This document shows positions 28,489 through 47,034 of a stretch of 59,806 bases of DNA, in pieces. Both the position numbers and the translations under genes were made by a program. Source of the DNA: Maribacter sp. (GTDB lineage: Bacteria > Bacteroidota > Bacteroidia > Flavobacteriales > Flavobacteriaceae); contig JAHDDP010000020.1 of the NCBI GenBank assembly GCA_020629285.1, positions 1 through 59,806 of the forward strand. Reading direction: 5' to 3'. How positions within the stretch are numbered: the stretch's first letter is position 1; the number at the start of each line of letters is the position of its first letter. The notes under the pieces were generated by a model. That model was not told the DNA's origin, searched no databases, and saw only the letters and a list, made by a program, of their open reading frames with translations.

Positions 28489-28502
28489 AGTGGAGCCGGA
28501 GG
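28489..28502. other. attL: left direct repeat (copy of ssrA 3' end)
   Basis: AGTGGAGCCGGAGG, identical to 47071-47084, which is the 3' end of the tmRNA acceptor region. Only the last 14 bp are duplicated, as expected for the crossover core of a tyrosine-recombinase element. Confidence 0.85.
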
Positions 28503-28551
28503 CTATTCCCCTTTATAGTTTTAGATAATCAGTTTTAATGTGTATGTTTCT

Positions 28552-28579
28552 AAAAAACAGATATTTATGTCTGTTTTTT
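28552..28579. repeat. Perfect 10-bp hairpin near the left end
   Basis: AAAAAACAGA and TCTGTTTTTT around an 8-base loop, followed by another ATCTGTTT at 28583-28590. It lies between attL and the integrase arm sites. It could be a terminator insulating the integrase from chromosomal read-through, or an excisionase-type site. Confidence 0.45.
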
Positions 28580-28622
28580 ATATCTGTTTATAACTTTTTT
28601 CAATAAAGAGATATAACATTTT

Positions 28623-28644
28623 TGTCAACGATTTTGTCAACGCA
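28623..28644. repeat. Left copy of 22-bp terminal repeat (paired TTGTCAACG sites)
   Basis: Two TTGTCAACG units at 12-bp period. The whole 22-bp block recurs exactly and in the same orientation at 47008-47029. It lies 28 bp upstream of the integrase ATG and about 120 bp inside attL. Probable arm-type binding site for the integrase. Confidence 0.65.
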
Positions 28645-28671
28645 TTAATTAACTGTAATTATTTAAAAATT

Positions 28672-29907
28672 ATGAAATATTCATTTTATCTCAGAAAATC
28701 CAAATCAGAAACTGCAACTTTAATTATGTTTTCTTGTTATTTCAATCAAGAAAAAAAGAAGTTTGTTTACTCTACTCAAAAATCAATTCTTCCATCACAC
28801 TGGGATTTTAATAATAAAAGACCAAATAAATCAGGAAAATTTGTTTGTAAAAACCAACCCGCTATTTCTAAAAGAATAAGAGATTTTGAAGATGCTTTTC
28901 AACTAATTAAGTCTAGGTCAGAACTTGGGGAATTGGAGTTTGATAGTAGTATGTTAAAAGAACACTTTGATAAAGTATTTGAGCGAGTAAGTAAAGCAAG
29001 TTCTTTCTTTGAAGTTTACGATAAGTTTACTCAGGAAAAAATCAAATTGAAAGAGTGGAAAGAGTCTACTGTCAAACGGTATACCAATATTAAAAATTTA
29101 TTGATAAAATTTGAAGATGTATATAATTACAAACTCACTTTTGGGAAAATCAACAAGAAGTTCTTTACCGAATTTACAGATTTCTCTTATGAATATAGGA
29201 ACCATTGTACGAATACTTTTAGCCGGAATGTGGGTCTTTTTAAGACTTTTATGTTTTGGTCATTGAATAACGGTTATGCTTATAACGAGTCTTTCAAGAA
29301 TTTTAAAAAACCAAAACGTGTTTTAACCCGACAAGAGGTACTTAATTTAGAACAGTTACTAGAAATCTATAATAAGACTTTTGAAACAGAGCATTTAGAA
29401 AATGTTGCGGACACTTTTATTTTTCAATGTCTAACAGGAATGAGATTTGGTGAGCTCAAACTGATAAATAAAAGAGTTATTACCCCAAATGATTGCATAT
29501 TACTAAAAGAAGAAAAGGATAGTATAAAAGTTACGAGGCTTATACCAATGTCTAAGTTGGCTTCATCGATACTGAAAAAATATAATTATGAATTACCCCT
29601 TATATCTAATCAAAACCAAAATAAGGCTGTTAAAGAAGTTGTAGCTAAAATAGGTCTGTCTCATGATGTAGAATACTCTAGAACAAAAGGAGTTGTTCAA
29701 GAAAGATTTATTAAACCTTTTAATAAAAGGATTGCCACACATACAGCAAGAAGAAGCTTTATAACAATTATGCGAAATAAGGGAATTGCCGATAAGACTA
29801 TCATGAGTATTACTGGACACACCGACATAAAATCATTTAATCAATATCATCAAGTGGATAATACAGCTCGAATAAATGCTATAAATTCGGTTTTTGACAA
29901 TTATTAA
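28672..29907 (+). CDS. int: Tyrosine recombinase / integrase of the element
   Basis: Site-specific recombinase of 411 residues in the Bacteroidota phage-integrase family. It has an N-terminal arm-binding domain (residues about 1-90), a SAM-like core-binding domain (about 100-205) and a C-terminal catalytic domain. Catalytic residues visible are Arg in TGMRFGEL, His-x-x-Arg in HTARRSF, His in ITGHTD and the nucleophile Tyr in FNQYHQ. It integrates the element at the ssrA 3' end, shown by adjacent attL. Arm sites overlap its probable promoter, so it may repress itself. Confidence 0.94.
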   Translation: MKYSFYLRKSKSETATLIMFSCYFNQEKKKFVYSTQKSILPSHWDFNNKRPNKSGKFVCKNQPAISKRIRDFEDAFQLIKSRSELGELEFDSSMLKEHFDKVFERVSKASSFFEVYDKFTQEKIKLKEWKESTVKRYTNIKNLLIKFEDVYNYKLTFGKINKKFFTEFTDFSYEYRNHCTNTFSRNVGLFKTFMFWSLNNGYAYNESFKNFKKPKRVLTRQEVLNLEQLLEIYNKTFETEHLENVADTFIFQCLTGMRFGELKLINKRVITPNDCILLKEEKDSIKVTRLIPMSKLASSILKKYNYELPLISNQNQNKAVKEVVAKIGLSHDVEYSRTKGVVQERFIKPFNKRIATHTARRSFITIMRNKGIADKTIMSITGHTDIKSFNQYHQVDNTARINAINSVFDNY

Positions 29908-29920
29908 TTATATGCAAAAG

Positions 29921-29966
29921 CGTATAAAATTAGAATAAACACAATTTTTATACGTTTAAGCGTATA
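29921..29966. repeat. Hairpin and AAGCGTATA repeats after the integrase gene
   Basis: CGTATAAAA and TTTTTATACG form a hairpin (29921-29954) that may end the integrase transcript. AAGCGTATA occurs at 29918-29926 and 29958-29966. A 14-bp block TAAAATTAGAATAA at 29925-29938 recurs exactly at 30185-30198. Otherwise the 331-bp stretch 29908-30238 contains only the Fic promoter and operator. Confidence 0.4.
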
Positions 29967-30155
29967 ATAAGACGTTGGTTTTTTATGAGGTGTTTTGTTT
30001 CATTTAATACTTTCTTGAAATAGTTTTCAATATATTAGAGTGTATAATTTAATCTCAATTATATTTAATAACCACTTGATATTAACGTAATTATGAGTCA
30101 ATGCTTTTAAATTCACTATATTGGTATGCATTTTGATTCATATATTATGCTTTAT

Positions 30156-30182
30156 TACAGTACAACTGTATGATTTACAGTA
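30156..30182. promoter_or_regulatory. Possible operator of the Fic module
   Basis: TACAGT aca ACTGTA (30156-30170) is a perfect 6-bp inverted repeat, with a third half-site TACAGTA at 30176-30182. It lies just upstream of the predicted promoter of the Fic operon. Confidence 0.4.
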
Positions 30183-30204
30183 GTTAAAATTAGAATAAGA
30201 CGTA

Positions 30205-30234
30205 TTGAAGATTTAAAAGTATTTAATACATTTG
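30205..30234 (+). promoter_or_regulatory. Bacteroidota promoter of the Fic operon
   Basis: TTG at 30205-30207, 19 bp, then TACATTTG at 30227-30234, matching TTTG-N19-TAnnTTTG. The ATG at 30239 is only 4 bases later, which predicts a leaderless mRNA. Confidence 0.6.
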
Positions 30235-30238
30235 CCCT

Positions 30239-30451
30239 ATGTTAGTTACAAGACAAGACATATTATCTTTAAAAGAGTTATCGACTACAAAAGATGCTGT
30301 AGCTGTTGATACTATACCCGCTACATTTAAAACTGATTTCCAAATGTTCTTTTTTGGTAAAACATTTTTAAAGAAAGATGATACTTTATTTGCTTATCCT
30401 CATGATATAAAAAAGTGGACACGTTTTATGTTTAATAAATATAATGGGTAA
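30239..30451 (+). CDS. Small partner protein of Fic
   Basis: Protein of 70 residues (MLVTRQDILSLKELSTTKDAV..., ending YPHDIKKWTRFMFNKYNG). It ends 3 bp before the Fic start, so the two are translated together. The Fic protein already has its own inhibitory helix, so this may be a regulator or substrate adaptor rather than a classic FicA-type antitoxin; this is inference. I recall similar small ORFs upstream of Fic genes in Bacteroidota but cannot name a family. Confidence 0.7.
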   Translation: MLVTRQDILSLKELSTTKDAVAVDTIPATFKTDFQMFFFGKTFLKKDDTLFAYPHDIKKWTRFMFNKYNG

Positions 30452-30454
30452 TAC

Positions 30455-31249
30455 ATGTTACCTGATTATTTATTAAAATTTAATAAAGCTCTTTCTGATT
30501 TTCAACAAAAATTTCCAAGACAAGAATGGACTCCAGAATTTAGAAATTCATTAATTAATGATTATTCTTTCTATTCTGCAAGAGTAGAAGATTCTAAACT
30601 TCAATATGGAGATACTATTCGTTTTTTAAATAATGAAACAGTACGGGGTATTAATTTTAATTCTTTGGTAGGTATATCTGACCACCAGTCTGTACTCAAA
30701 AGTCTATTGGATTCATTAGATGGTTTTAGTTTAACAGAGGATAGAATTAAACATATACATCGTTGTTTAATGGATAGTCCAATGGCCTGGGAAGCCGAGT
30801 TTAAGCCAGAATTAGTAGGTAATTACAGAAATGTACCAATAGAGGGTTCTCGAGAACCTTTTTTTGAAAATAAAGTATATGCACCTCATTACAATTTAGA
30901 AGTGATAATGGCTACTTATGTAACTATGTTTAATGGGAGAATCAACGATATTGATAATAATATTGAAGAAAAACACTTATTAACTCGATTAGCATTTTTA
31001 CATAATAAATTCTTAAATGAAATACACCCCTTTGCAGATGGTAATGGTAGAGTATGTAGAATTATTTTAGGGGCAGTTCAGATGTCTAATAACTGCCCAC
31101 CTATATTTCCTGAGATTACATCACAAGAAGAACAAGTGGAATACATAACAACAATTGTAAATTGTGAAAAAGAGAATAATGATAAACTTTTAGTAGCTTA
31201 TTTTGCTGATGGTATGGCAGATTATATGATTAGAAGAATTAATCAATAA
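30455..31249 (+). CDS. fic: Fic-domain protein (AMPylase)
   Basis: Protein of 264 residues. The active site is HPFADGNGRVCR at residues 191-202 (HxFx[D/E]GNGRxxR), so transfer of AMP or another nucleotide to a hydroxyl group of a target protein is expected. The N-terminal inhibitory motif S41-A-R-V-E45 fits the class II pattern S-x-x-x-E, but with Asp where Gly or Asn is usual. It is in an operon with the 70-residue protein and sits among defence genes, so a toxin or abortive-infection role is plausible. Confidence 0.9.
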   Translation: MLPDYLLKFNKALSDFQQKFPRQEWTPEFRNSLINDYSFYSARVEDSKLQYGDTIRFLNNETVRGINFNSLVGISDHQSVLKSLLDSLDGFSLTEDRIKHIHRCLMDSPMAWEAEFKPELVGNYRNVPIEGSREPFFENKVYAPHYNLEVIMATYVTMFNGRINDIDNNIEEKHLLTRLAFLHNKFLNEIHPFADGNGRVCRIILGAVQMSNNCPPIFPEITSQEEQVEYITTIVNCEKENNDKLLVAYFADGMADYMIRRINQ

Positions 31250-31333
31250 TAGAGATAGTCAAAGAAAAATATAAGTATTACAATATTAATAGTATATATA
31301 TTTATAAATAAAACACCAACTATAAGCCATATT

Positions 31334-31843
31334 ATGACGCACCTTACCCTAAAGAACTTTTTTAAATTCCTATCCGTATTTTTTCTTTTAGCAGCAGTAA
31401 TTACTTCCTGTTCAAAAGATTCTGATGAACCGCCAATTGTTGATTCATTAGGTGAAGTAAGATTTGTTCTTACATTGGATGAAGCACCACAAGAGGAATA
31501 TACAATGCAAATTAATATTATTCCATTAACAGACTTTAGTGAAGGTGTAGTTACTGCTACGTATGAAAATACCGACCTCTCTAGAGATACGGCTCTACCT
31601 ATAGGTACTACTGACTTTGATACATCTTCGGCTATACATAACGTGGTCACTACATCTAACGCAAACGGAATGAAAGTAGACCTCCTTTTTCCTTCAGATA
31701 ACTAAAATAAAACGGTAGATTACACCATTCAATTTTATTTTAATGATTCTCTGGAACACAACCAATCTTTTCAGGTAACTTTTAAAGAAGGTAGTGCTAA
31801 TTTTATACAATGGGACTTAGATAAAGGTTTTAAAGTATTTTAA
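31334..31843 (+). pseudogene. Lipoprotein gene interrupted by an in-frame stop
   Basis: Signal and lipobox (FFKFLSVFFLLAAVITSC), a DSDEPP linker, then a beta-rich domain. A TAA at 31703-31705 ends the first part at 123 residues. The same frame then continues for 45 sense codons (NKTVDYTIQFYFND... to DKGFKVF) to a TAA at 31841. The second part is compositionally like a beta-strand continuation, so the intact gene would have coded for about 169 residues. Reading AAA or CAA for TAA would restore it. Either a true pseudogene or a sequencing error. Confidence 0.7.
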
Positions 31844-31993
31844 TATCGGACTTTTTCAGCGATATTGATTCCGGAATTTTCAATTTTTTTTAGCGCTCAT
31901 TGGTATAGAATGTTTGAATTCCAAGAGAATACGTTTTGTATGCATAAATATATAATCTTTTGTAATACAGTGAAATTATATCATTACATGTAT

Positions 31994-32028
31994 AAAAAAG
32001 AAGCAGCCCGCTCAGGCTGCTTTTTTAT
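31994..32028. terminator. Bidirectional terminator between the Fic cargo and drt3b
   Basis: GCAGCC / GGCTGC stem with a 6-base loop, flanked by A-rich and T-rich tails on both sides so that it can terminate in both directions. On the minus strand it ends the drt3 transcript and forms the 3' hairpin of the proposed ncRNA. Confidence 0.8.
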
Positions 32029-32110
32029 GTTCATTCTTCTTTTATCGAAGAGTAAACAGAACGCTAGTGTGTGAACTCCCAAAGAAGTCATTATTTGAGC
32101 GGAGCGTATA
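31998..32110 (-). ncRNA. Candidate DRT3 non-coding RNA
   Basis: A stretch of 113 nt directly after the drt3b stop and ending in a rho-independent terminator; no ORF. It contains CACACAC (32067-32073), flanked by a short GAGT/ACTC pairing. The 5' part has CCGCTCA (32096-32102), perfectly complementary to TGAGCGG formed by the terminator loop and one stem base (32008-32014), which could close the RNA as a pseudoknot. A TCTTC/GAAGA hairpin lies between. As I recall, characterised DRT3 uses an ACACAC template in its ncRNA. The exact ends are guesses. Confidence 0.5.
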
Positions 32111-34144
32111 TCAATAAACTTCTTGACTTTTTTTAGCTTCTATTTCATTACCAAAGTTGAAATTTTCCCATTTTGTAAACCAGAATTTTCTATGCTCAAT
32201 TATTTTTGTTCTCATAGCACCCTGAGATGAGGGTACACCAAAAAGCAAAAATATTTTGTTTTTAAATTTTCTATCCAAAAATGGGCAAGTTAAGATATCA
32301 AAAAATAACATTACTAATTCAGTATGTTTTAATCTATTTTCAAATGAAACAATTTCAATTTTCTCTAATATATACGATTTTAAAATAGATTTCAATTTTT
32401 GATATCTGATTTTATTACCAATATAAAAAAGGGTTACAGTAATGGAAAAATAATGAAGCGGGAAATTACATTGTTTACTTTTCAAGTTAATGCCTAAATA
32501 ATTTGCAAGGGTGTATTCATCTAAACGATATTCTTTCCCAAGTTCATTTAATGCAATTAATAGATATAATGTTTCTATCTGGACATGTTCTTTAATTCTC
32601 TCTTTTTTTAGCACTAGGAATATTTCGTCGTAAATTTTCTTAAAAACTCTATCTTTAAAATCTGGGGTTAAATGTAATTTAGAAAATTGAGTTATTTTAC
32701 TAGTAATAGAACATAATTTTATAGTGCTATTTACTCTAAGATTTACTGTGTAAATAAAAAAGCTTAAATCCAAGAAACCTAATATTAATTGAATATCATT
32801 AACATTAGGTATTTTATTTTCAGTCAAGACTTCCAATAATTTTGTTAATTTATTATCAATACAGCCGAGGGTGAAATTCTGAATGTCTTTATAAGCAATG
32901 TCAGAACTTTTAACTATCAATTTATATTTTGTAATCAGTTTATTAAAGCTTACGTAGTAATCTTGATTTTTATCATCTTTGAGTTTCTCATTGTTTGAGT
33001 TCTTATATGCGAATGATAAATTTTTATCAATTAGATCAGTAATATTTATTTTTGCTTCTGTAATACCAGTTAATATAGGTTTAGTATGGTGTTCGTTTTT
33101 TTGTTCATTAATACCTAATTTATATTCCCTTAATTTTACTCTAAAACGATTGACTACTTCATCTTTTACTACATCTTCATTGTAAAAAACAAAGAAGTCG
33201 TCAACATATCTAAAAATCTCAAATTCTTTTCGATTAGATAATTTTTGGTCTAGGTTAAGTAATTCATATTGAACTTCTTTATCAATTTTTTGAAGAATCA
33301 TCTCTGCGAAAATTCTAGAGAATTCTGGACCTATAATTATTCCGTTGGTCTCACCGTAATTTAAATCTTGCATTAATCTATCGAACTTGCCTCCAAAAGT
33401 ATTGAGGGATAATGGTATTTTGTGTTTTACACACTCCTTGTCAAGTAGAGCCCAGGTTATAGAGTGTGAGTATATACTATCGAAACATTTCGATATGTCA
33501 AACTTAAAGAGCTTATCATATTTTTTTTCACAACGTTGGTATTTGTAAGATTCGTAAAATTTATGAATGTTACTTATTTCTTTATAAGAAAAAAATGTTT
33601 TAAGGTTTTCGTATTCTTTATCAAATTCTTCTGCACCAGATGATTCGTGATCAGCTGCAAGTTTATCATAATGCAATCGATCTTTGAAATATGTGAATTT
33701 TGCGGTTTTAAAAGGTCGTCTTAATGAAAACTCACTTTCATTGCTATAATAAAGTATTAAGTCTTTATTTTTTTCATAGAATTCAGTTACAGCAAGTTGA
33801 TTTTTTGGATGAATTACGCTAAGCTCTCTGAATTCATTTTTCTTATGTGAAATTTTATAATGAAATGGTATAGTCTTTAAAGCTCCTTTAGTTATTTCTA
33901 TAGTTATACTTTTAGCCGTTTCGTTAGTAATTAGTCTTCTTTCTAAATTAAATAGTAATTTTAAAATTGGTTTTATTACTAAGCTTTCGGATTTCCATGA
34001 TATTTTATTGCCATTTAATTCTATTTCGTTTTCTGAGATAAAACTATAAAAGAAACGGTTTGAAAAGGTTGCTGGAATTTCAAATGGTAAGATGTCAGAT
34101 AAAACTACACGTTGTATTTTGTTTGAGATGTTTTTCTTTTTCAT
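32111..34144 (-). CDS. drt3b: Antiviral reverse transcriptase, Drt3b-like
   Basis: Protein of about 677 residues with an RT palm domain in the middle. Motif A is KLFKFDISKCFDSIYSH (Asp near 215), and the motif C box is FRYVDDFFVF (VDD near 315). The N-terminal extension (LSDILPFEIPATFSNRFFY) and the 350-residue C-terminal helical region are outside the RT core, as in the UG8/Drt3b class. The ATG at 34144 shares a base with the TGA of the upstream RT gene (TGATG); a TTG at 34147 is less likely. It should act with Drt3a in anti-phage defence. Confidence 0.8.
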   Translation of the reverse strand: MKKKNISNKIQRVVLSDILPFEIPATFSNRFFYSFISENEIELNGNKISWKSESLVIKPILKLLFNLERRLITNETAKSITIEITKGALKTIPFHYKISHKKNEFRELSVIHPKNQLAVTEFYEKNKDLILYYSNESEFSLRRPFKTAKFTYFKDRLHYDKLAADHESSGAEEFDKEYENLKTFFSYKEISNIHKFYESYKYQRCEKKYDKLFKFDISKCFDSIYSHSITWALLDKECVKHKIPLSLNTFGGKFDRLMQDLNYGETNGIIIGPEFSRIFAEMILQKIDKEVQYELLNLDQKLSNRKEFEIFRYVDDFFVFYNEDVVKDEVVNRFRVKLREYKLGINEQKNEHHTKPILTGITEAKINITDLIDKNLSFAYKNSNNEKLKDDKNQDYYVSFNKLITKYKLIVKSSDIAYKDIQNFTLGCIDNKLTKLLEVLTENKIPNVNDIQLILGFLDLSFFIYTVNLRVNSTIKLCSITSKITQFSKLHLTPDFKDRVFKKIYDEIFLVLKKERIKEHVQIETLYLLIALNELGKEYRLDEYTLANYLGINLKSKQCNFPLHYFSITVTLFYIGNKIRYQKLKSILKSYILEKIEIVSFENRLKHTELVMLFFDILTCPFLDRKFKNKIFLLFGVPSSQGAMRTKIIEHRKFWFTKWENFNFGNEIEAKKSQEVY

Positions 34145-35466
34145 CAATTCCAGATTTTCATAATTTCTTTAAGTTGTTTACCAGTATATGTTGAGAATCT
34201 TCGATTTGCAAATCCTTCAATAAACTCATATTTTGTTAATCTAGCCTTAAGTGAATTTGAACTCAAACTTCTTATATGTCCTTTTAAAATATTATCCAAG
34301 TGAGTGATTTGAGCTGTTTCAGTTAAAAAACTATTGGAGTAATAAATACCTATTAGAATTTGAGATTTATTATTTGCTAGTCTGGTATTACCTGTAAGAA
34401 ATCGAATTCTTTTAACTAAAAGACTTCTGGCTAATTTTTCATCAACAATACTTAGATTTGAATAATTTAAAAAAGAAGATTCAATTCTGCTGATTATTTT
34501 ATTTACTTTTCGAGGCGTTAATTTAGTTTTTACTTTTCCATCTTTTACTTTAAACGTATAACCTAAAAATTCAAAGGAGTGAAGAGTAGCATCAATAATG
34601 TTTTTTTGAAAAGTTTTAGCGGAATTTATACTGATATTTCGATTTTCTTCAATTGATTTTTTTACTTCCTCTAAATAGTTTCGAAACTGATCATTTGGAT
34701 TATTTACGAATAGAATTACAATATCATCTACAAATCGAGCATAAAATATTACACCAGGAATTGCTTTTATAATTTTATCGACTTTACGCATGTATAGCTC
34801 AGCTAAATAAGCGCTAATACCAATTCCTCTTGGCAAGCCTAAACTGTTTCCGGATAAATTTTTATAACTGCGTAAAATCTGCTGAATAATTTTACGGGAC
34901 TTAGGAGATAATAAATTACTTTGATTAATAATATCAAGAATACTTGAATGGTCAATAGATTCATAAAAGTTAGAAATGTCTGTTCTAATTAAAGTCTTTG
35001 GAAATTTGTTACTTAATAATGATATTAATTGCTGAACGATACTGTTTCGATTGGATTGTTTTACTCCAAACAGTTTTGATATATTGTATTGTACTTGTTT
35101 AATAGCAAAAAAATGTTCTGGAATATTGTTGATAGTATATAAATCTTTAGCTCCTGGAATTTGTATAATTTTAAGTGCAATTTTAAATTTATTTTTGCCT
35201 ATGTTGTGACTAATTTGTTCCAGAACTGAGTCAATTTCATGATTCCTGTCTTTTCTAACTTGATCCTTAGCTTCATTAAAAAAAGTTGCGAGAATTTTAT
35301 TTCCTTTTTTATTATAAGCTTTACTTAAGGCACTATATTTTTTTATGTCATTCGTATATTTACGAATAGAAGTAAGATTTAATTTGTCTTCTAAGAAAAG
35401 ACCGTTCCTATTAGAAATATCAAAAATTGTTTTGAAATTATCTTTTGAAAATGATTGGTCTAACAT
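34144..35466 (-). CDS. drt3a: Antiviral reverse transcriptase, Drt3a-like
   Basis: Protein of 440 residues with an RT domain preceded by about 150 residues (MLDQSFSKDNFKTIFDISNRNG...). Motif A is LIRTDISNFYESID (Asp near 162), then SLGLPRGIGISAYLAELYM, and motif C is FYARFVDDIVIL (VDD near 247). There is no maturase or HNH domain, which argues against a group II intron. Size, N-terminus and coupling to a larger second RT match the Drt3a (UG3) gene of DRT type 3. It is the first gene of the pair; 65 bp separate it from the restriction-modification gene. Confidence 0.8.
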   Translation of the reverse strand: MLDQSFSKDNFKTIFDISNRNGLFLEDKLNLTSIRKYTNDIKKYSALSKAYNKKGNKILATFFNEAKDQVRKDRNHEIDSVLEQISHNIGKNKFKIALKIIQIPGAKDLYTINNIPEHFFAIKQVQYNISKLFGVKQSNRNSIVQQLISLLSNKFPKTLIRTDISNFYESIDHSSILDIINQSNLLSPKSRKIIQQILRSYKNLSGNSLGLPRGIGISAYLAELYMRKVDKIIKAIPGVIFYARFVDDIVILFVNNPNDQFRNYLEEVKKSIEENRNISINSAKTFQKNIIDATLHSFEFLGYTFKVKDGKVKTKLTPRKVNKIISRIESSFLNYSNLSIVDEKLARSLLVKRIRFLTGNTRLANNKSQILIGIYYSNSFLTETAQITHLDNILKGHIRSLSSNSLKARLTKYEFIEGFANRRFSTYTGKQLKEIMKIWN

Positions 35467-35531
35467 ATTTTTTTAGATGTGAAAACATTATTTTGTAAAT
35501 TGAAATATATATTTTTTAATAAGTATAAGTT

Positions 35532-38500
35532 TTATTCAATGTCAACTTTATCAATCTCTTTCATTATTCTATCGGTTTCCGTTAGGGCTACTATAATTTT
35601 TTGATAATGTAAAATATCCTCAAACTTTAGTTCTCTTTCCTTTCTGTCTTTTAGCCATTTTTGTGCTGGTTGGTAACCCCCAATGTAAAACTCCCAAGCA
35701 GTAACTGGAACGTTGTCAAAATATTTGCTTTCGTTTATCCAAATTCTACCAAGTTGTTTTTCGGTATCAATTACTTCCCAATCTTTCTTTCCAATTTTTG
35801 TGGTAATGACGTTATGGTCGTTTTCGGCATTTTCTGCCATTTCATAACTTGTGATGTAATTTTCAACATTGTTACTTTCTAACAAATGAATTTTGCGAAG
35901 CTCGCCACCCAAACTTACCAAACTCCAAAACGTTTTCTCGTCCTTTGGATAAGGCACTCTTGGAAAATCTATTTTTAAAAACTCCTTGTACTTTTCTTTG
36001 TAAGTAGGCGAGTGTAATACCGCATAGATGTAATCTAAAATATCTATTGGTGCAAAAGTATTAATAGTTTCTTCTCTTTCGTTAGTAAAAGTTATACTTA
36101 GTTTTTCAGCAATTTCACTTAAAATTTTAACATTTAGATTTGGAGTTCTTTCTGCAGATTGAGAAATGGTTTGTTGTCCGTCGGATTCTGAATATAAGTA
36201 AAGAGGGAAAGTTAAACCTGCTCCGAATTGACCTGCGGTACCTGTGTAATTTATATCAGTTAATCCTTTACTAACGAAAAAACCAAACTTCTCTGTTATG
36301 GCTTGCCTTGGTAACAGAATCGCGAGGTTATCTTTCAACATATGTTTCATCAACCCTCTTCTTGAATCTCCCCTTGGGATAATTTTATTTATTCTTTCAA
36401 CAGGATAATACGCAAATCTTGAATCAAATGGTCGATAATTCACCCTTGTAATATCTTTATAATTTGCATTTTGAAAGTTATTTCTTTGTTCTTCTATTTT
36501 CCAATCTTTAGTTTCATTGAATTGATATTTTTTTAAGATTGAAGAATTATCAAGTTGTTCAATATCAGAAATCATTTCAATAACACTATTAGCACTAAAA
36601 TGATTCTTTACTAATAGGTTATCTTTTCGAAATTTAATACCACTCCCTGAAGTTTTGAACAGTTTACTTAGGTTAATTCCTTTATTATATATTAATCTTT
36701 TCGTATAATCTCTTTGAACAAATACGAAATAAGGCTCTTTATTTTTTAGACTTGTCCAGCTAACACTTTGTAATGAATTCTCGCATAAAAAATCATATTT
36801 AAACTCTCTTTTACCATATAATTCATAATTAAATAATTGCCCTAATTTATTTTTATTTTTCTTTCCTGTTTTTACAAAAATATTTATGGAAACACCTTGC
36901 ATTATATCAAAAACGTTTTGATCTGGGCTGCCATCCGGGCTGACTTCTTTTTTCTTAGCATTACCGTGTAAATCCAAAATGTAAATCTTGTCAAAACACT
37001 CTAATAGGTGCTTACGCATCTTGCGAAAAACAATACCATCAATAAAACTATTATTTGAAATGTAAGCTAAGACTCCACTACCATTTTTCTCAATGTAGTA
37101 CTGACCATAGCGAATGAACTTTACATAATCATCAGAGAGAGAGTTATAACTTTTTTCGTTTAAATCTTTTTTGTAATCAGCAATTAATTTATCAATCCAG
37201 CCATTTTTATTCGTACTGCTAACCGCATAAGGTGGATTTCCAATAACACACATAACAGGTGTATCACGCTTAATGTGGTTTGCTTCATTGGCTTCACTAC
37301 TTAACCAATTAGAAAATAAAGTTCCTGTGTCTTTATGATGTTCTTCTAAAGAGTTGGTCAAGTAAATATTTAACCGTTCGTTTTTAGTGGATTTATAACC
37401 AGTTTCAGTTAGTAACATATCTAATTTTAGATGTGCCATAGCGTAAGAAGCCATTAATAACTCAAAACCATTTAATCTTGGTATTAGGTGTTCTTCTACA
37501 TAACCACTCCAAGCACCTTTCATTGCTTTAAAGTTCTTGTTGTAGATAAACTTTACAACTTCGGCTAAAAACGTTCCTGTTCCTGTTGCTGGGTCAAGTA
37601 TTTGTACTTTGTGAACTTCTTTTTCTGCTTCTCTATATCCTGTTTTAGATCGTTTGTCGTTCGTGGGTACCTTAATTTTAATTTTAGTTTTAGTTGTATC
37701 TGCCAAACCCTGAGGTAAATCAAATTCGGTTTTTAAAATATCGTCAACTGCACGAACTATGAAGTTTACTACAGGTTCTGGTGTGTACCAAACACCTCTT
37801 GCTTTACGTAATTTTGGGTCGTATTCTGCCAAAAACGTTTCGTAGAAATGTATTATAGGGTCATTAGTTTGTGTGCTTTTTCCAAAGTTATGCAAGAGTT
37901 GCTCCACATTTGTTGCTCTAAATACTTCTGCGAGATTATCTACCACCGTAACCATACGATCATCAATATCTGGTCCTGCAATGTATCCAAAAAGTTTACG
38001 TAAAAATGGATTTGATTTTGGGATTAACTCTGCTGCTTCTTGTCTACTAAAATCATCTAAAGTTGGGTCGTGTAAACGAGCTGCAAACATTCCGTAAGCT
38101 AAAGTTTGAGCATAAATATCTGCAAAGCCTTTAGGTTCTAAGTCGTGAATTAATATTTCTTTAAACGTATCATATTGTCCTCTTAGAGAGGTGTTTTCTT
38201 TTGTTTCTTCATCAGATGTAATAGCTCGTTCTAGAATATCTTGAAGTAAACGTGCTTTGCCAGCCATCATCTCTGCCAATTTTTTTGACGATTTGATGGT
38301 TTGACCAATGTGGGTAGAAAAATCTTTTATTAAGTTTTCAAACTTTGAAAAGTTTTTGGAGATTGGCTTAACTGAATTGTTTTCAATTTCTCCTATTTTT
38401 ATTTCATGAACTAATTCTCCGTTTTGAAAGAATTGAAACCAGATGTAGTCTGTAATAATTAAATTGTCAAGTGCTTTTTTGTATCGATCAAATTGTTCTT

Positions 38501-38747
38501 TGTAAGATTTACTGTTAAGGTCTTTTCCAATGTCCTTTGCCTCAATATAACCTACTGGGATTTTTCCTTTTGTGAGTACGTAATCTGGGTTCCCACAGTC
38601 TGTTACGTTTGCAGGTTCATTAGTTATTTCTACACCATGAACTAAAGTTCTAATCAAAGTTTCTAAATCTCCCCTATAGGAATGCTCTCTTGATATTCCT
38701 GATTGGAGTCTTTTACTTACTACTTCTACGTATTCTTTTATTGTCAT
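35532..38747 (-). CDS. Type IIG-like restriction-modification enzyme (nuclease-methylase-specificity)
   Basis: Single chain of 1071 residues. N-terminal PD-(D/E)xK nuclease: GNPDYVL (D55) and GYIEAKDIG (E69-x-K71). N6-adenine methylase core: motif I ILDPATGTGTF (near 382) and motif IV VIGNPPYAVSS (near 502). The C-terminal segment WEFYIGGYQPAQKWLKDRKERELKFEDILHYQ is the LlaBIII/Type ISP specificity-domain signature. Unlike full Type ISP enzymes (about 1500 residues) there is no SF2 helicase, so it should cut near its site without translocation. It modifies and cleaves DNA, and protects against phage. Confidence 0.9.
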   Translation of the reverse strand: MTIKEYVEVVSKRLQSGISREHSYRGDLETLIRTLVHGVEITNEPANVTDCGNPDYVLTKGKIPVGYIEAKDIGKDLNSKSYKEQFDRYKKALDNLIITDYIWFQFFQNGELVHEIKIGEIENNSVKPISKNFSKFENLIKDFSTHIGQTIKSSKKLAEMMAGKARLLQDILERAITSDEETKENTSLRGQYDTFKEILIHDLEPKGFADIYAQTLAYGMFAARLHDPTLDDFSRQEAAELIPKSNPFLRKLFGYIAGPDIDDRMVTVVDNLAEVFRATNVEQLLHNFGKSTQTNDPIIHFYETFLAEYDPKLRKARGVWYTPEPVVNFIVRAVDDILKTEFDLPQGLADTTKTKIKIKVPTNDKRSKTGYREAEKEVHKVQILDPATGTGTFLAEVVKFIYNKNFKAMKGAWSGYVEEHLIPRLNGFELLMASYAMAHLKLDMLLTETGYKSTKNERLNIYLTNSLEEHHKDTGTLFSNWLSSEANEANHIKRDTPVMCVIGNPPYAVSSTNKNGWIDKLIADYKKDLNEKSYNSLSDDYVKFIRYGQYYIEKNGSGVLAYISNNSFIDGIVFRKMRKHLLECFDKIYILDLHGNAKKKEVSPDGSPDQNVFDIMQGVSINIFVKTGKKNKNKLGQLFNYELYGKREFKYDFLCENSLQSVSWTSLKNKEPYFVFVQRDYTKRLIYNKGINLSKLFKTSGSGIKFRKDNLLVKNHFSANSVIEMISDIEQLDNSSILKKYQFNETKDWKIEEQRNNFQNANYKDITRVNYRPFDSRFAYYPVERINKIIPRGDSRRGLMKHMLKDNLAILLPRQAITEKFGFFVSKGLTDINYTGTAGQFGAGLTFPLYLYSESDGQQTISQSAERTPNLNVKILSEIAEKLSITFTNEREETINTFAPIDILDYIYAVLHSPTYKEKYKEFLKIDFPRVPYPKDEKTFWSLVSLGGELRKIHLLESNNVENYITSYEMAENAENDHNVITTKIGKKDWEVIDTEKQLGRIWINESKYFDNVPVTAWEFYIGGYQPAQKWLKDRKERELKFEDILHYQKIIVALTETDRIMKEIDKVDIE

Positions 38748-38997
38748 ATTCTATCTATAGAAAAAATGCAAACTAGTATATAATACTTTATCATTAAGTT
38801 TAAAATTACTTTCAATATTCTGCAAATTATACTTTTCTTTCAATTATGATTACTGTTTCCCGTAAACGTCGACTATCTTTTCAATAAATCATTAGAGTAC
38901 CTCAATTTAGTTAAACAACTTTGTTTTCATTTATAGAATTATATAAATCTATAATTATAGAAGAATTTCTTCTTGGGTCAGAATCAAAACCCAAATC

Positions 38998-39064
38998 TTA
39001 CCAAAACTAATACTATGAAGTGCGAGGGTTTTTATTTCAATAATGATTAATTTAGGATTGGTAA
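38998..39064. repeat. Imperfect inverted repeat upstream of the small membrane ORF
   Basis: TTACCAA (38998-39004) and CTAA (39007-39010) pair with TTAG (39052-39055) and TTGGTAA (39058-39064), with equal 2-base gaps and a 41-base loop. Nearby are TTGGGT/ACCCAA (38973-38994) and the 12-bp palindrome CTATAATTATAG (38949-38960). The 337-bp region 38748-39084 holds no protein gene and must contain the promoter of the restriction enzyme. Confidence 0.4.
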
Positions 39065-39084
39065 AATTTAAAAACTAGGTGTAT

Positions 39085-39201
39085 ATGAAAAGTTCAATTA
39101 CAATTAAGAATGTAGAAAGTAAATTAAACTTTGTTATAGCAGGAGTAGTATTATTTGGAACAGTAGCTTTTGTACTGTTGGTTATAGCTCTATTTAATTA
39201 G
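39085..39201 (+). CDS. Small single-pass membrane peptide (38 residues)
   Basis: ATG to TAG frame for 38 residues: a short basic start (MKSSITIKNVESKLN) then one hydrophobic helix of about 21 residues (FVIAGVVLFGTVAFVLLVIAL). Small single-helix peptides can be toxins, regulators or structural components. The upstream TAGGTG is only a weak ribosome binding site. It is the only plus-strand gene in the right half of the element besides host genes and is convergent with the zinc-ribbon gene. Confidence 0.45.
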   Translation: MKSSITIKNVESKLNFVIAGVVLFGTVAFVLLVIALFN

Positions 39202-39203
39202 AT

Positions 39204-40172
39204 TTAATAATCTCGATTCTCAGGATTAACCAAAAACCTGTTGAGAATATTTGCTATATGCTCCGGTTCTTTATGTATGGGTTTATTTTTAGCAACAATA
39301 ATATCGGATGTTGGTGTTAATGTGAGCCAAGCATCATCATGATCTCTATCCCAGACCCCGTACAAGCACTTTGTGCCTTTTTTGATTACTATATCTTCTT
39401 TGAAGATTATAGTGCCGCTAAACCGTGGTGTATTAGAATTTCGATATGACTTATTTTTCTCCAGATGAAAACTTAACCTTGACCAAGTTTTGTAAGTTTG
39501 ATTCTCGGATTCTGAATGTTCTCTATTTATATGATTTTCTAAAATTTCTCTAAGTTCTTCAGGATAATAAATTTCAACATATTTCTCTGCAAGATTTTCT
39601 TCAATATGAATCAATTCCAAGAGTTTGAATTTTTGAAGAATTACAAAGTGCTCACTGTAAAAGGATAGTGATACCTTATCGGGACAAGTATCTATAATGT
39701 GAATCATAAACTTTGCCTGTTCATCGGTAAACCTTGTTTCTTTATATCTATTGAGTGCCCAGTTGAATTTGCCCTGTCTTTCTATTTTCTGCTGAGCCAA
39801 TTCATGATTTTTCTGTCGTATTTCAATCACCTTTTTTTTAGTTTCTTCCCATTTTAATTTTTGTTTGGTTTTACACTCTTCGCATAAGGGTGAATTTCTC
39901 AGCGAATCTAAAAAATGAGATTGCGAGCTAATAGCAACTTCAGTTAATTTATTGCAGCCAGGGCAAATGCATTCTAAATTAACAAAAGAGTATTCCTTAA
40001 TTATTAAAAACAACTCATGTGAGGTAAGATTATTTTTTCCGGACAGCTGCTTTGGTTTATTTTTAAACGCACTCTCCTTAAAATTCCAATACTGGTTTAT
40101 AAGTTGGAGTCTGTCTTTGTCAGGGTCATTTTTAATGATAACGGTATAAGACACTTCTTGAGTTTTTCCCAT
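39204..40172 (-). CDS. Unknown zinc-ribbon protein of the cargo region
   Basis: Protein of 322 residues if it begins at the ATG at 40172 (MGKTQEVSYTVIIKNDPDKDR). The frame is open 47 codons further upstream, but that part is read out of a nested palindrome and looks spurious. Four Cys (CICPGCN and LCEECK, about residues 69-99) form a zinc ribbon. A Lys-rich helix follows. The C-terminus has FSGTIIFKEDIVIKKGTKCLYGVWDRDHDDAW. I recognise no family. Its setting next to restriction and RT genes suggests defence or element maintenance; inference only. Confidence 0.6.
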   Translation of the reverse strand: MGKTQEVSYTVIIKNDPDKDRLQLINQYWNFKESAFKNKPKQLSGKNNLTSHELFLIIKEYSFVNLECICPGCNKLTEVAISSQSHFLDSLRNSPLCEECKTKQKLKWEETKKKVIEIRQKNHELAQQKIERQGKFNWALNRYKETRFTDEQAKFMIHIIDTCPDKVSLSFYSEHFVILQKFKLLELIHIEENLAEKYVEIYYPEELREILENHINREHSESENQTYKTWSRLSFHLEKNKSYRNSNTPRFSGTIIFKEDIVIKKGTKCLYGVWDRDHDDAWLTLTPTSDIIVAKNKPIHKEPEHIANILNRFLVNPENRDY

Positions 40173-40201
40173 AAAAAAAGCGTGGAACTGACCTGTAGGT
40201 A

Positions 40202-40308
40202 TAGGAGGTATCGCCAGACACCCATTCGCCAAACAAGAACAGCCCACGCTAGAGCGTGGGCGTCTTAGTCTTGATTGTGGCGAATTAAAAAAACTGGCGA
40301 TTTTCCTA
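40202..40308. repeat. Nested long palindrome (five concentric inverted repeats)
   Basis: From outside in: TAGGA/TCCTA, TCGCCAG/CTGGCGA, ATTCGCC/GGCGAAT, CAAGA/TCTTG and GCCCACGCT/AGCGTGGGC, the last with a 2-base loop. Together they can fold a hairpin of about 107 nt. It is GC-richer than its surroundings. The translated minus strand (SPQSRLRRPRSS...) looks like a repeat that I recall being over-annotated in other Bacteroidota, so a mobile or structural repeat is likely. Confidence 0.6.
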
Positions 40309-40392
40309 ACCAAATCAAAAGCTAATCGCTTTTGTATTTTATGATTCTTAAATGTTCCTTATATTTTGATTTAAATTTATAATTGTTACTAT

Positions 40393-40779
40393 TTATTTTT
40401 TAGTAAACTTTTCAGACTTTCCGGCAACATTTATGGACTTGTAATCATCAGATAATTCAAAATACACTTCAGCTCCCATCATATCTACTAAAAATTTATG
40501 ATTTTCAGGATTATATGTTCCAATAACAGTATCGGTTTGTTTATAATCATTAGGACTATTTTTTAAAGACGACTCTTGTATAATATTAAAGTCATTATCG
40601 CTTTTATGAGTAATTAAGATTCTGTAATTCTTATTTTTTGACCTCTTGGTATTATGAGATTCTGAAGCATAATACGCCCCTTCAATGTCATTTAAATTGT
40701 AACCTACGTTATTGCCGCAAGATTGAAAGATTAACATTGATATAATTAAAAAGGATGCAAATTTTGTTACTGGCTTCAT
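40393..40779 (-). CDS. Hypothetical lipoprotein of the element
   Basis: Protein of 128 residues with signal MKPVTKFASFLIISMLIFQSC (lipobox Cys at 21). The mature domain (NDIEGAYYASESHN... YNPENHKFLVDMMGAEVYFEL) has the strand-rich look of small lipocalin-like or copper-resistance-like domains, but I cannot assign a family. It sits between the palindrome and the partition genes on the same strand. Confidence 0.7.
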   Translation of the reverse strand: MKPVTKFASFLIISMLIFQSCGNNVGYNLNDIEGAYYASESHNTKRSKNKNYRILITHKSDNDFNIIQESSLKNSPNDYKQTDTVIGTYNPENHKFLVDMMGAEVYFELSDDYKSINVAGKSEKFTKK

Positions 40780-40834
40780 TTATTTAGGAATTGTTATTGT
40801 TCAAATTTAGCTAAAATTGCGCATTCTAAGTTCG

Positions 40835-41062
40835 TTAAAGATTCAGGTAGTTACGAATACTCTCATTTAAAATAGACTTAATACTCCTATCTTCTTCCAA
40901 AGCTTTAGTCTTCAATTTTCTCAAAACAGTTTTATCTATATAAAATGAAAATTGCTTTTCATTTTTGTCAATAGGTATTTCTGGTACAACCTTTTGTATA
41001 GACTTGTCCGGTTTTGAAGCTCGTGCTTGGGCTATTAAATTATTAAACTCTGTTTTTGACAT
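40835..41062 (-). CDS. Ribbon-helix-helix partner of ParA (ParB-like)
   Basis: Protein of 75 residues. The C-terminal part (KQFSFYIDKTVLRKLKTKALEEDRSIKSILNESIRNYL) is a ribbon-helix-helix pattern; the N-terminal 35 residues are disordered and basic. It follows the ParA gene, so it is probably the centromere-binding partner that couples the element DNA to ParA. Confidence 0.72.
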   Translation of the reverse strand: MSKTEFNNLIAQARASKPDKSIQKVVPEIPIDKNEKQFSFYIDKTVLRKLKTKALEEDRSIKSILNESIRNYLNL

Positions 41063-41111
41063 GATGTAGATTTATATAATTATATAATTCATTATTTATG
41101 TAAATGTGTAT

Positions 41112-41696
41112 TTATATAAGTGATGTTAATACCTCTTTCGTTAAGCTATCAATTTGCCTTTGGGCATTACTATTTGTTGCAACTCCTTTTAACAAAGGAG
41201 ATCTAGTAAATGCTACCAAATCACTTATCATTGTTTGCGCTATTTTTATTTTATGTGAATCAAGGTTATTCAAGATATCTTCAGTAATAGTTGTATTAGC
41301 TTTTACCATGTTCAGGATTATCATGGTATTCTTTTCCTTCAGTTCATCTTTAATAACACTAATAGTGTTATCGATAGCTAACAAATCGAGAATTCCAGCT
41401 TTTGTTGGTACTAATATTAAATCTGCAATTTTGATAAGCCCTTTCAGCTTTGATGATAGGTAAGGAGGTGTATCAATGAAAATGAAATCCAAATTGTTGT
41501 CAGTTGTTAAAATATTTTCATCTGTAGTTATTTGAAACGAATCAACAATTTTTGAAAGCTGTGATAGACTGCCTTGAACATCCGTGTCCAATATAGCTAC
41601 TTTAGAATGTTCACTAAGATTCTGTGAAAGATTATAACACAAGTTACTCTTTCCAACTCCGCCCTTTTGATTCATAATTAAAATGATTTTTGCCAT
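41112..41696 (-). CDS. parA: ParA-family partition ATPase
   Basis: Protein of 194 residues with deviant Walker A KGGVGKSNLCYNLS (first Lys in GGVGK), Walker A' ILDTDVQGSLSQL and Walker B FIFIDTPPYLSS. Small plasmid-type ParA without an N-terminal HTH, so autoregulation must come from the partner protein. It is typical of low-copy plasmids and supports an extrachromosomal phase of the element. It begins 2 bp after the coiled-coil gene. Confidence 0.9.
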   Translation of the reverse strand: MAKIILIMNQKGGVGKSNLCYNLSQNLSEHSKVAILDTDVQGSLSQLSKIVDSFQITTDENILTTDNNLDFIFIDTPPYLSSKLKGLIKIADLILVPTKAGILDLLAIDNTISVIKDELKEKNTMIILNMVKANTTITEDILNNLDSHKIKIAQTMISDLVAFTRSPLLKGVATNSNAQRQIDSLTKEVLTSLI

Positions 41697-41698
41697 AG

Positions 41699-42151
41699 TT
41701 ATTCAGCTTTAGCGTTGCTCCATTTTTGATAAGCTTCGTTAGTTTCTTGGTTGTCCTTCAAAAAGGAATTGAAATGGCTTATAACTTCATCTTGACCTTT
41801 TTCATAATATTCTAGATTAGTTTCGGAAATAGAGTTTAGATTATAAATAGCGAAGCTGGTCAACAAAAAACAACATAAAAGCAAAATGCCAAATAAGATG
41901 ATGATCCAATTAGGGTAATGATTTGACTTCGAAAGCTTTCCTGTCAAGTCGGAAATTTTTTTGCGTTGTTCTACGGATAGTTCTTTCTGTTGTTTAAGAC
42001 TAATGCTTAAAACCGACTTCATTTCCCTTAAATCTGGCGACAGGGGAATAGTTTTTAATTCCTTGGACAACTGTTCCATTTTATGGAGTTGTGTCTTAAA
42101 ATCGCTTAATTCTTCTACTAATAGCTCTGCTAAATCATCAATTTTTGCCAT
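41699..42151 (-). CDS. Coiled-coil membrane protein of the mobilization operon
   Basis: Protein of 150 residues: N-terminal amphipathic helices to about residue 75 (heptad-like LVEELSDFKTQLHKMEQLSKEL), one TM segment (WIIILFGILLLCCFLLTSFAIY), then a charged tail. Related small proteins follow relaxase genes in flavobacterial mobilizable elements, as I recall. It lies 2 bp after the relaxase and may help dock the relaxosome to the helper secretion machine; inference. Confidence 0.65.
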   Translation of the reverse strand: MAKIDDLAELLVEELSDFKTQLHKMEQLSKELKTIPLSPDLREMKSVLSISLKQQKELSVEQRKKISDLTGKLSKSNHYPNWIIILFGILLLCCFLLTSFAIYNLNSISETNLEYYEKGQDEVISHFNSFLKDNQETNEAYQKWSNAKAE

Positions 42152-42153
42152 AA

Positions 42154-43014
42154 TTAAATTCCTATTTCCATTCCCTTTGTTATTACTTGTTTTACAGCCT
42201 TCTTTGCTAAACTTGTCAAGAAATTAGTACTTAGTTCAACCATGCTACCACCTATGCTAACTGCTTTTGCGGAATCTTGAAGAATTTTTCCGCTACTATT
42301 AGTGGCAAGTTCATTTGCAATCTTACCACCGCTCATGGAACGGTGTACTTCACTTCCTTTCAGATTTACCCCATTATATTCGAATCTAAAACCTTGTAAC
42401 CGTCCACCTTTATTTATGCTAGGAATTACTTGTACATTTTTAGAAGCCATTTTTTTGATGTAATCGTCAAAAGTTTTAGGTCGGCTATCTTTCATTACAT
42501 GTTTGTGTATGTTTTGAATTTCTAAACGTAAGTTTTTAAGCTTGTCAAGCTTTTCATTTTGAACCTCTTGCACCGTTTTTAGCCCCATGGATTTGGCTAC
42601 TTTTTCAGCACTAAATGTGGTTCTTTTTCCAATAAAACTATCGTTATATGTTCTGCCATTAAAGTTTATTCTATTGATTATCAAGTGTATATGTTTGCAT
42701 TTTGTATTTGAGTGAGTGAATGCGATTGCTTGATGGTTTGTGAGTTTCATTTCTGTGATAAATTTTTCTGCTATTTCACCAAACTGTTTATCGGTTAATT
42801 TCTGACCATCTTTTATTGTTGGACTTATGATGAAACTCATAGTGTTCTTCTTGCAGTTAACATTCATGTTTTGAATGGTTTTGAATTCATTGGAAATTTC
42901 TTTAGGATTTTCACCTAATAAATTTTGCCTAAGAACAACCGTTGCATCTTTTTCTTGATTCCAACTATAGGCAATGGTATTATTGTTTGAGACTAAATTA
43001 ACTTTGCCTATCAT
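42154..43014 (-). CDS. mobA: Relaxase / mobilization nuclease
   Basis: Protein of 286 residues with the conserved relaxase two-His motif HIHLIINRIN (HxHxxxN, near residue 108), a candidate catalytic Tyr near residue 16 (NTIAYSWNQEKD), and a long basic C-terminal part. It nicks oriT and leads single-stranded transfer by a helper conjugative system. It overlaps the MobC-like gene upstream by 17 bp, so production is coupled. A MOBP-type assignment is my estimate. Confidence 0.9.
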   Translation of the reverse strand: MIGKVNLVSNNNTIAYSWNQEKDATVVLRQNLLGENPKEISNEFKTIQNMNVNCKKNTMSFIISPTIKDGQKLTDKQFGEIAEKFITEMKLTNHQAIAFTHSNTKCKHIHLIINRINFNGRTYNDSFIGKRTTFSAEKVAKSMGLKTVQEVQNEKLDKLKNLRLEIQNIHKHVMKDSRPKTFDDYIKKMASKNVQVIPSINKGGRLQGFRFEYNGVNLKGSEVHRSMSGGKIANELATNSSGKILQDSAKAVSIGGSMVELSTNFLTSLAKKAVKQVITKGMEIGI

Positions 43015-43315
43015 TTTTAAAGTTATTTAAATGATCTTTCATTTCTTTAGCAAGAGCATATACTTCTTCAGTCAATTTTGGATTTTGTTTCCGGTACATA
43101 TTTCCAATTGAAGTAAAATTATTGCTGTATTTAATTAAGGTTTTATAAAACTCAATCTGTTCCTCATTTAGGATTTCAACAACCTTAACATCCAAAGCAG
43201 ACCTTAAACAAAATTCACTGAGAGATAACCCTGCCTTTTTCGCCTTTTTTTTTAGCAGTTTTTTCTCGTATACTCTGCATCTAAATTGAATAAATTCTTT
43301 CTTTGTTTTTTTCAT
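42998..43315 (-). CDS. mobC: MobC-like relaxosome accessory protein
   Basis: Basic protein of 105 residues (FIQFRCRVYEKKLLKKKAKKAGLSLSEFCLRSALD, then YSNNFTSIGNMYRKQ). A ribbon-helix-helix-like DNA-binding N-terminal part followed by the MobC helical segment. It helps the relaxase melt oriT. It is first in the operon with relaxase, TM protein, ParA and the ParB-like protein, each 2 bp or less apart or overlapping except the last. Confidence 0.82.
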   Translation of the reverse strand: MKKTKKEFIQFRCRVYEKKLLKKKAKKAGLSLSEFCLRSALDVKVVEILNEEQIEFYKTLIKYSNNFTSIGNMYRKQNPKLTEEVYALAKEMKDHLNNFKNDRQS

Positions 43316-43342
43316 TTTCTTTTGCGACCATCGGGAGTAAAA

Positions 43343-43374
43343 GCAAGTTTTGTCATGACAATGACACTACTTGC
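43343..43374. other. Candidate oriT upstream of mobC
   Basis: GCAAGT / ACTTGC inverted repeat with 20 bp between, containing the perfect palindrome TGTCATGACA (43351-43360) and ATGACA after it. It sits in the 74-bp gap between the Toprim primase and the MobC-like gene, the usual place for oriT. No nic site can be stated. Confidence 0.4.
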
Positions 43375-43389
43375 CAACTTACTCATTCC

Positions 43390-44232
43390 CTATATTTCAT
43401 TTTTCTTAATCCACCATTCATTTACATCGTTAAATCCTGTATATAAATTTGAACAATCATGAAAAACTGTTTGTTGAGCAGTAAATTTCTGTGCTATTGC
43501 ACGTCCGGTTTTATCCTGGTCTAAATAGAGGTTTATTCTTTTATATTTATCCGTAAAATCATTTAACCTATTAGAAAAAGAACAGGAATTAAGAACCAGT
43601 AAATCAGAGTTTTTCATTAGTGAATTATTCATAGATATCAGAGATAACATATCAAACATTCCCTCGGTAACAGCTAACGAATTATTACCATTGTTGATTA
43701 AGGAAATATCCTTTGGAGAAGAACCCGATTTAAAATATTTGTTTCGTAATTCCCAACCCTCAGAGTTGTTCTTTAATCCTATAGAAAAGTATTTTTTATC
43801 ATTTAAAGTAAAGTGCACTTCTTTGCAAATAGCTCGTGCTGCGGATATAGAAATTTTTCTAGTTTCTAGATAATCTATCAAACCAAAATGTTGAATAGGT
43901 TTTACGCTGTCAATCTTTATACAAGAATTTAATTTTGTCGATGTAAAAGTTTGCTGATGAAAAGAAAAATGAGTTTTATTTTCGGATAAATAATCAAGTG
44001 CATCTTTTACCGAACCTAACATTTTTGATAATAGGTCTATTAAATTACCCCCTAAGCCAATCCCAAAATCATAGAATACATTTTTTTGTTTATTGACTTT
44101 AAAAGAAGGGTCAGATTCATTTCTAAATGGAGATAGAAACCAGGCTTCTTTTTCGGTTTCTCGTATGGGGTTATGACCTAGATTTCTAAGTGTTATTATT
44201 ATGTCTATTTTCTTTGCTTCTACACAGTTCAT
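43390..44232 (-). CDS. Toprim-domain DNA primase of the element
   Basis: Protein of 280 residues. The N-terminal part (AWFLSPFRNESDPSFKVNKQKNVFYDFGIGLGGNLIDLLSKM) is a CHC2-like DNA-binding domain that lacks the zinc cysteines. The Toprim domain follows (SLAVTEGMFDMLSL with catalytic Glu, then INLYLDQDKTGRAIA with DxD). Typical of mobile elements in Bacteroidota, where it primes replication of the excised or transferred strand. It lies next to the iterons. Confidence 0.85.
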   Translation of the reverse strand: MNCVEAKKIDIIITLRNLGHNPIRETEKEAWFLSPFRNESDPSFKVNKQKNVFYDFGIGLGGNLIDLLSKMLGSVKDALDYLSENKTHFSFHQQTFTSTKLNSCIKIDSVKPIQHFGLIDYLETRKISISAARAICKEVHFTLNDKKYFSIGLKNNSEGWELRNKYFKSGSSPKDISLINNGNNSLAVTEGMFDMLSLISMNNSLMKNSDLLVLNSCSFSNRLNDFTDKYKRINLYLDQDKTGRAIAQKFTAQQTVFHDCSNLYTGFNDVNEWWIKKNEI

Positions 44233-44261
44233 ATCTTGTGGAGTTTAATTGTTGATATTTT

Positions 44262-47029: not shown

Positions 47030-47034
47030 AAATG

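Follow-up and report, generated by a model that had tools for sequence, protein, structure and literature searches.

The locus examined here raises the question of whether the gene-free stretch beside a pair of reverse transcriptase genes encodes a template RNA and, with it, the question of what makes the enzyme halt once a seven-base template has been copied. Within the window, by which we mean the whole 59,806-base stretch of Maribacter DNA that was analysed, positions 31998-32110 of the minus strand very probably encode the ncRNA of a DRT3 anti-phage system, in a compact, pseudoknotted variant that would act as proposed below. This reading is drawn from comparative sequence analysis and is backed directly by the identity of the two proteins, the conservation of the template, the covariation of helices P1, P3 and P4 and of the pseudoknot arms, and the match between RNA layout and Drt3b phylogeny.

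A DRT3 operon and its putative downstream template

In the E. coli DRT3 system, as set out in the cited part of the preprint (Wang et al. 2026; PMC13174585), the ncRNA gene lies 3′ of drt3b, a conserved ACACAC occupies a loop of this RNA, and mutation of this segment abolishes both defence and poly(dTdG) synthesis. Drt3b of that system makes poly(dCdA), primed on Y666 and gated by E22 and R241. The window contains the same set of components, namely Drt3a, Drt3b and a putative ncRNA with ACACAC 3′ of drt3b. On the minus strand, a gene for a type IIG restriction enzyme-methylase (38747-35532) is followed by drt3a (35466-34144; 440 aa) and the adjoining drt3b (34144-32111; 677 aa), the arrangement expected of DRT3 (UG3 + UG8), and beyond drt3b no listed gene occurs until about 31998. 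The first-pass annotation had called the pair DRT3, and this identification holds, as both proteins scored above the curated NCBIfam cut-offs (NF041747 and NF041748; E 1e-113 and 3e-212) and PADLOC assigned them to Drt3a and Drt3b. For Drt3a, the best PADLOC family other than Drt3a itself was UG17.

Counting along an alignment with the 26cz chain and an alignment of 14 Drt3b sequences, we read E22, R71, R241 and Y666 of E. coli Drt3b as E22, R106, R277 and the C-terminal Y677 of the window protein, so that, together with YVDD at 313-316, the gate, priming and catalytic residues of the E. coli protein are all present. In the loci described below, R106, R277 and the aspartates of YVDD are invariant wherever the alignment has a residue at the position. 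At the E22 column, three loci have D and a fourth has R, and these four belong to the long group defined below; Y677 appears to be replaced in a single alignment row (L052). We also looked for altered templates beside altered E22 gates and found that all four such loci keep ACACAC; the locus with R (L022) thus has an ordinary template, and its alignment is uncertain at this column.

The gene-free stretch was noted at first pass as ending in a terminator and holding CACACAC, and both features are in place, with CACACAC at 32073-32067 on the operon strand and a hairpin followed by CTTTTTT at the far end. The motif lies 38 nt after the drt3b stop. Since it reads 5′-CACACAC-3′ on the operon strand and its copy is GTGTGTG, the direction is right for a poly(GT) template. 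The window has one CACACAC whereas shuffles have about three, so it is the placement of the motif, and not its presence, that is informative.

To place the motif among relatives, we assembled 120 loci including the window (L003): 11 from 397 family genomes, 7 from plasmids, 6 from samples of the phylum and the order, 80 from genome contigs (the best of 356 relatives there), and 16 from viral contigs, where a single Drt3b query had found none and an alignment query found all 16. This set is partly redundant, with the same RNA region in, for example, L019 and L029 or L006 and L051, which seem to represent a single species sampled in two collections. In 119 of the 120 loci, the operon strand carries ACACAC no more than 300 nt past the drt3b stop, compared with 69 of 1813 upstream and 17 of 920 further downstream 300-nt windows of the same loci. 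Its sequence, its placement as in the E. coli system and the covariance model match given below all agree in identifying CACACAC as a putative DRT3-type template, as had been supposed. The remaining locus, L023 (3403-3732), encodes a Drt3b-like protein on a branch of length 4.16 and lacks ACACAC both within 300 nt of the stop and in the 4869 bases examined; its gate and priming columns nevertheless agree with Drt3b.

Covariation of the predicted RNA helices

The predicted ncRNA gene is about 113 nt long, with predicted ends at 31998 and 32110 on the minus strand. P1 is formed by ACGCT (32103-32107) and AGCGT (32061-32065), which covary and would close the template loop. A hairpin, GACTTC-TTTG-GGAGTT (32074-32089), ends directly at the 5′ end of the template (32067-32073) and is a candidate template boundary. 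It is followed, beyond the 3′ arm of P1, by the P3 hairpin (32028-32058) and the terminator-like P4 hairpin (32001-32022), which is followed by CTTTTTT; both hairpins covary. The seven-base complement reported at first pass exists as described, with CCGCTCA at 32102-32096, just 3′ of the P1 5′ arm, and TGAGCGG at 32014-32008. TGAGCGG comprises six loop bases and one stem base of P4, and the last pseudoknot pair therefore competes with a terminator pair. Template, candidate boundary hairpin and predicted pseudoknot are seen together as one layout in this RNA. A single-sequence fold had offered another register for P1, in which AGCG pairs with CGCT inside CCGCTCA; this register has zero compensatory changes, and the alignment backs ACGCT/AGCGT.

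Taken singly, the repeat and the complement are weak, as had been judged from the outset. When the 113 nt were dinucleotide-shuffled 5000 times, 0.9% of the shuffles contained ACACAC and 0.2% contained CACACAC, and a perfect seven-base complement to the 10-nt loop region arose in 0.5% of shuffles of the 5′ 44 nt.

We therefore examined whether the two arms change together among relatives. A MAFFT alignment of 24 compact-type sequences, chosen by eye as alignable and so not a random sample, was built with no structural information. Across P1, the pseudoknot, P3 and P4, 92.8% of cells pair while slid controls reach at most 49.4%, and 118 cells are changed on both sides compared with 43.7 in shuffles; one of five measures, further pair types, was not above shuffles (75 of 500 as high). 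For the pseudoknot alone, 92.9% of cells pair (slid controls 37-52%) and 34 cells carry double changes compared with 13.3 in shuffles, with two of the five measures lying within the shuffles, namely pairs with a double change (248 of 500) and further pair types (343 of 500). P4 pairs in 100% of cells.

As a second approach, loops were exchanged among loci. Our script located P1 beside the template, extracted 18 nt spanning the end of the P1 5′ arm, found the 3′ hairpin and scored the pairing with its loop. Of 100 loci with a template at most 100 nt past the stop, 99 yielded both P1 and hairpin (L021 gave no P1), and 47 were left after a filter at <75% identity. The mean pairing score was 14.15 with the own loop and 10.01 with swapped loops; none of 20000 permutations reached the own-loop mean, the highest being 11.82. 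Scores of at least 13 were obtained for 35 of the 47 own pairs and for 15.6% of swapped pairs, leaving 12 of the 47 below 13. The scoring was refined between two script versions after the data had been looked at; the earlier version, which had no P1 step, gave 13.68 and 10.72 over 50 loci, again with 0 of 20000 permutations. The arms are rewritten in several ways, including CTGAC/GTCAG, ACCAATCA/TGATTGGT, CCGACA/TGTCGG, TCATCC/GGATGA, AATCCTC/GAGGATT and CCAACCA/TGGTTGG. These compensatory changes, together with the preference for own over swapped loops, argue that the 5′ part probably pairs with the terminator loop as a pseudoknot, as the first-pass annotation had proposed; the comparison of homologues that it suggested found both ACACAC and the pairing conserved.

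A covariance model (R1), built without the pseudoknot, was run over 91 sources. These were the window together with 90 loci out of the 120; those left aside were 11 near-copies and 19 that were long-type or odd. The model gave 80 matches at E <= 0.1, thereby placing the ncRNA beside drt3b in compact-type loci. One match, in L013, is remote from the template of that locus, and misalignment affects some weak rows. The window matched at 32000-32113 with 92.8 bits and E 1.7e-20, being itself one of the 24 seed sequences; this is the sole match in the window below E 0.04, and the model finds no second copy in the genome assembly (83% complete). By name, 57 of the 80 rows do not belong to the seed, one of which (L019) is the twin of a seed row (L029). 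In these 57, all five core pseudoknot pairs were found in 35, at least four in 40 and fewer than four in 17. Several rows with fewer than four do pair in the cross-locus test and look misaligned, and L014, L043 and L105 pair poorly in both. A search of the 397 family genomes for orphan RNAs returned the window's genome and one weak match (G277, E 0.007), which has no Drt3b in the 3089 bases examined and was judged to be chance. The filters of this search were stricter and missed the RNAs of the 10 other Drt3b genomes, so its outcome leaves room for orphans.

By homology to the E. coli system, the RNA would be transcribed and bound by Drt3a, which would copy CACACAC repeatedly into poly(GT). 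With Tyr677 as the priming residue and guidance from E22 and R277, Drt3b would make poly(AC) with no nucleic-acid template, and the two strands would pair to form a repeat duplex. In the compact RNA, P1 would close the template loop, the hairpin would abut the 5′ end of the template, and the bases that immediately follow the 5′ arm of P1 would pair with the loop of the 3′ terminator hairpin. The pseudoknot would in this way connect the template loop with the 3′ terminus of the RNA and could position or bound the template.

The same features admit other explanations. That the region is simply the 3′ end of an operon with its terminator, the CA run and seven-base match being chance, would be hard to dismiss from one genome, where about three CACACAC are expected in the window and the match has odds of about 0.5%; ACACAC conserved in place and covariation among relatives refute this account, which we consider extremely improbable. 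It is also conceivable that RNA and template are real, and that the arms pair between RNA copies of an oligomer or act as a terminator switch. Articles restating Deng et al. (Science 2026) describe, in the parts cited here, a 6:6:6 E. coli complex with six ncRNAs (PMC13314766, PMC13213688), and covariation is blind to the difference between pairing within one RNA and pairing between copies, with which it is equally compatible. In favour of these alternatives, a base of the terminator stem is also part of one pseudoknot pair, but P4 (100% of cells) and the pseudoknot (92.9%) are kept together, and coexistence fits this better than exclusion. Overall, we regard pairing between copies or a switch as unlikely.

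A decayed DRT3 relic, with an RNA that is present and no longer working, would suit the distribution of the genes, since neither of the two other genomes of the genus in the family sample has Drt3b at E <= 1e-60 and DRT3 is accordingly an accessory gene set here. Against decay, the frames of drt3a and drt3b are both open in the window, none of the named residues is missing, and P1, the pseudoknot, P3 and P4 are retained in the RNA, making a relic very unlikely. A working RNA with an internal pseudoknot remains our preferred reading.

Two Drt3b groups and two RNA layouts

A quick maximum-likelihood tree of 110 Drt3b rows, with three rows of <400 aa and seven identical rows left out, divides into two unmixed sets, 94 rows of the compact type (window included; SH-aLRT 100) and 15 of the long type (SH-aLRT 84). 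The sample is biased towards kin of the window, and the root was set at the midpoint, beside the outlier L023, so that which groups count as clades depends on the root. RNA layout matches Drt3b phylogeny, compact with a pseudoknot on one side and long on the other; L041 was typed compact by its RNA, and its Drt3b falls inside the compact group. Many Bacteroidota and Pseudomonadota share the compact type with the window. In the long type, the distance from stop to template is 118-239 nt and the closing helix has up to 13 pairs. A similar but not identical script gave own and swapped scores of 7.65 and 7.60 for 17 of 18 long-type loci (one with an identical P1 was dropped), with 2447 of 5000 permutations as high, a weak negative in which some choices of P1 and hairpin (L117, for example) are perhaps wrong. 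For the long group, 'no pseudoknot' means no terminator-loop pairing of the compact kind and nothing wider. One long-type locus, L016, has a 9-nt crossing match between an inner segment and the 3′ tail, and the group may hold a pseudoknot of another kind.

The E. coli-type locus L109 illustrates the difference, with its template 128 nt past the stop compared with 38 nt in the window, and a terminator-like hairpin with a GAAA loop and a low pseudoknot score, whereas the terminator loop of the window is predicted to pair back. The E. coli layout, with a long 5′ domain before the template and a short unpaired terminator loop, is not that of the window. PDB entries 9z6y and 9z6z, which we take to be the structures of Deng et al., Science 2026, contain Drt3a and Drt3b homologous to those of the window, a comparison made by protein alone. 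PDB 26cz can be linked to the E. coli DRT3 of Wang et al. 2026 (PMC13174585) by sequence length and residue numbering. The 26cz Drt3b is identical to that of L109 across the 340 aa compared, and the best 14 matches of the 9z6y Drt3b fragment among our loci are all in the long group, so both Drt3b chains with solved structures side with this group. The covariance model of the preprint, in the part cited, was seeded with EcoDRT3 and close subgroup 9 kin and then widened by search (PMC13174585). The DRT3 work considered here builds on E. coli systems with a Drt3b from one group. The other group has a smaller RNA with a predicted pseudoknot that our comparisons did not detect in the group holding the E. 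coli versions studied so far.

We found no description of a DRT3 pseudoknot in the openly licensed literature searched, which is not proof of absence. The word is not used in the cited part of the E. coli DRT3 preprint (PMC13174585), the knots of the DRT1 paper are, in the part cited, protein knots, and the corresponding part of the DRT10 paper names a pseudoknot once, for telomerase RNA (PMC12632851). The DRT2 ncRNA is likewise pseudoknotted, with five pairs and contacts to the RT thumb region in the part cited (PMC12596737), but DRT2 has one RT of another family and another template logic, and the likeness is one of layout. According to the part of the DRT10 paper cited, DRT10 (UG17) also has a short repeat template just 3′ of a boundary stem-loop, and in telomerase RNAs a stem-loop or pseudoknot serves as template boundary (PMC12632851). 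These likenesses are again by layout, and the DRT10 template varies among systems while that of DRT3 is constant.

Thirty-six compact loci have pseudoknot scores of 12 or more. Of these, 28 carry a hairpin scoring at least 9 that separates the pseudoknot arm from the template, and in 22 the hairpin stops no further than 2 nt from the template, counts that have no shuffled control. Five loci with linkers of 10-11 nt (L019, L020, L030, L034 and L068) yielded no three-pair hairpin and kept the pseudoknot, which, with the same lack of a shuffled control, suggests that the pseudoknot may be the constant template boundary. A wider and more doubtful possibility is that the two DRT3 lineages use two RNA machines, of which the compact one would have a telomerase-like core made up of repeat template, boundary hairpin and a pseudoknot locking the template loop to the terminator; the pseudoknot would then be the true boundary, and templating would occur only after termination. 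Each pseudoknot arm can be altered separately, which makes it a testable question what halts the enzyme at the template end and lets it slip back for repeats.

Genomic setting of the operon

DRT3 lies within an element of about 18.6 kb, marked by two copies of a 14-bp repeat (28489-28502 and 47071-47084, the latter coinciding with the 3′ end of tmRNA) and by 23-bp repeats near both ends (28622-28644 and 47007-47029). An Rfam search of the window at gathering thresholds returned tmRNA only. The element encodes tyrosine integrase, relaxase, NikA-like, primase-like and ParA-like proteins, and 28489-47084 is probably a mobilizable integrative element in ssrA with DRT3 as its cargo. Further cargo comprises a Fic protein (30455-31249) and the type IIG restriction enzyme (35532-38747). 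The nearest Drt3b relatives, among the best 80 of 356 in genome contigs, are from Flavobacteriaceae and share at most 69% identity.

To the left of the RNA, the region 31334-31843 holds a short lipoprotein-like frame (31334-31705) that, read by eye, stays open in frame for about 45 codons beyond its stop, and frame and continuation are possibly an interrupted gene. The terminator-like hairpin at 31997-32026 has terminator form on both strands and may also end the small gene converging from the left.
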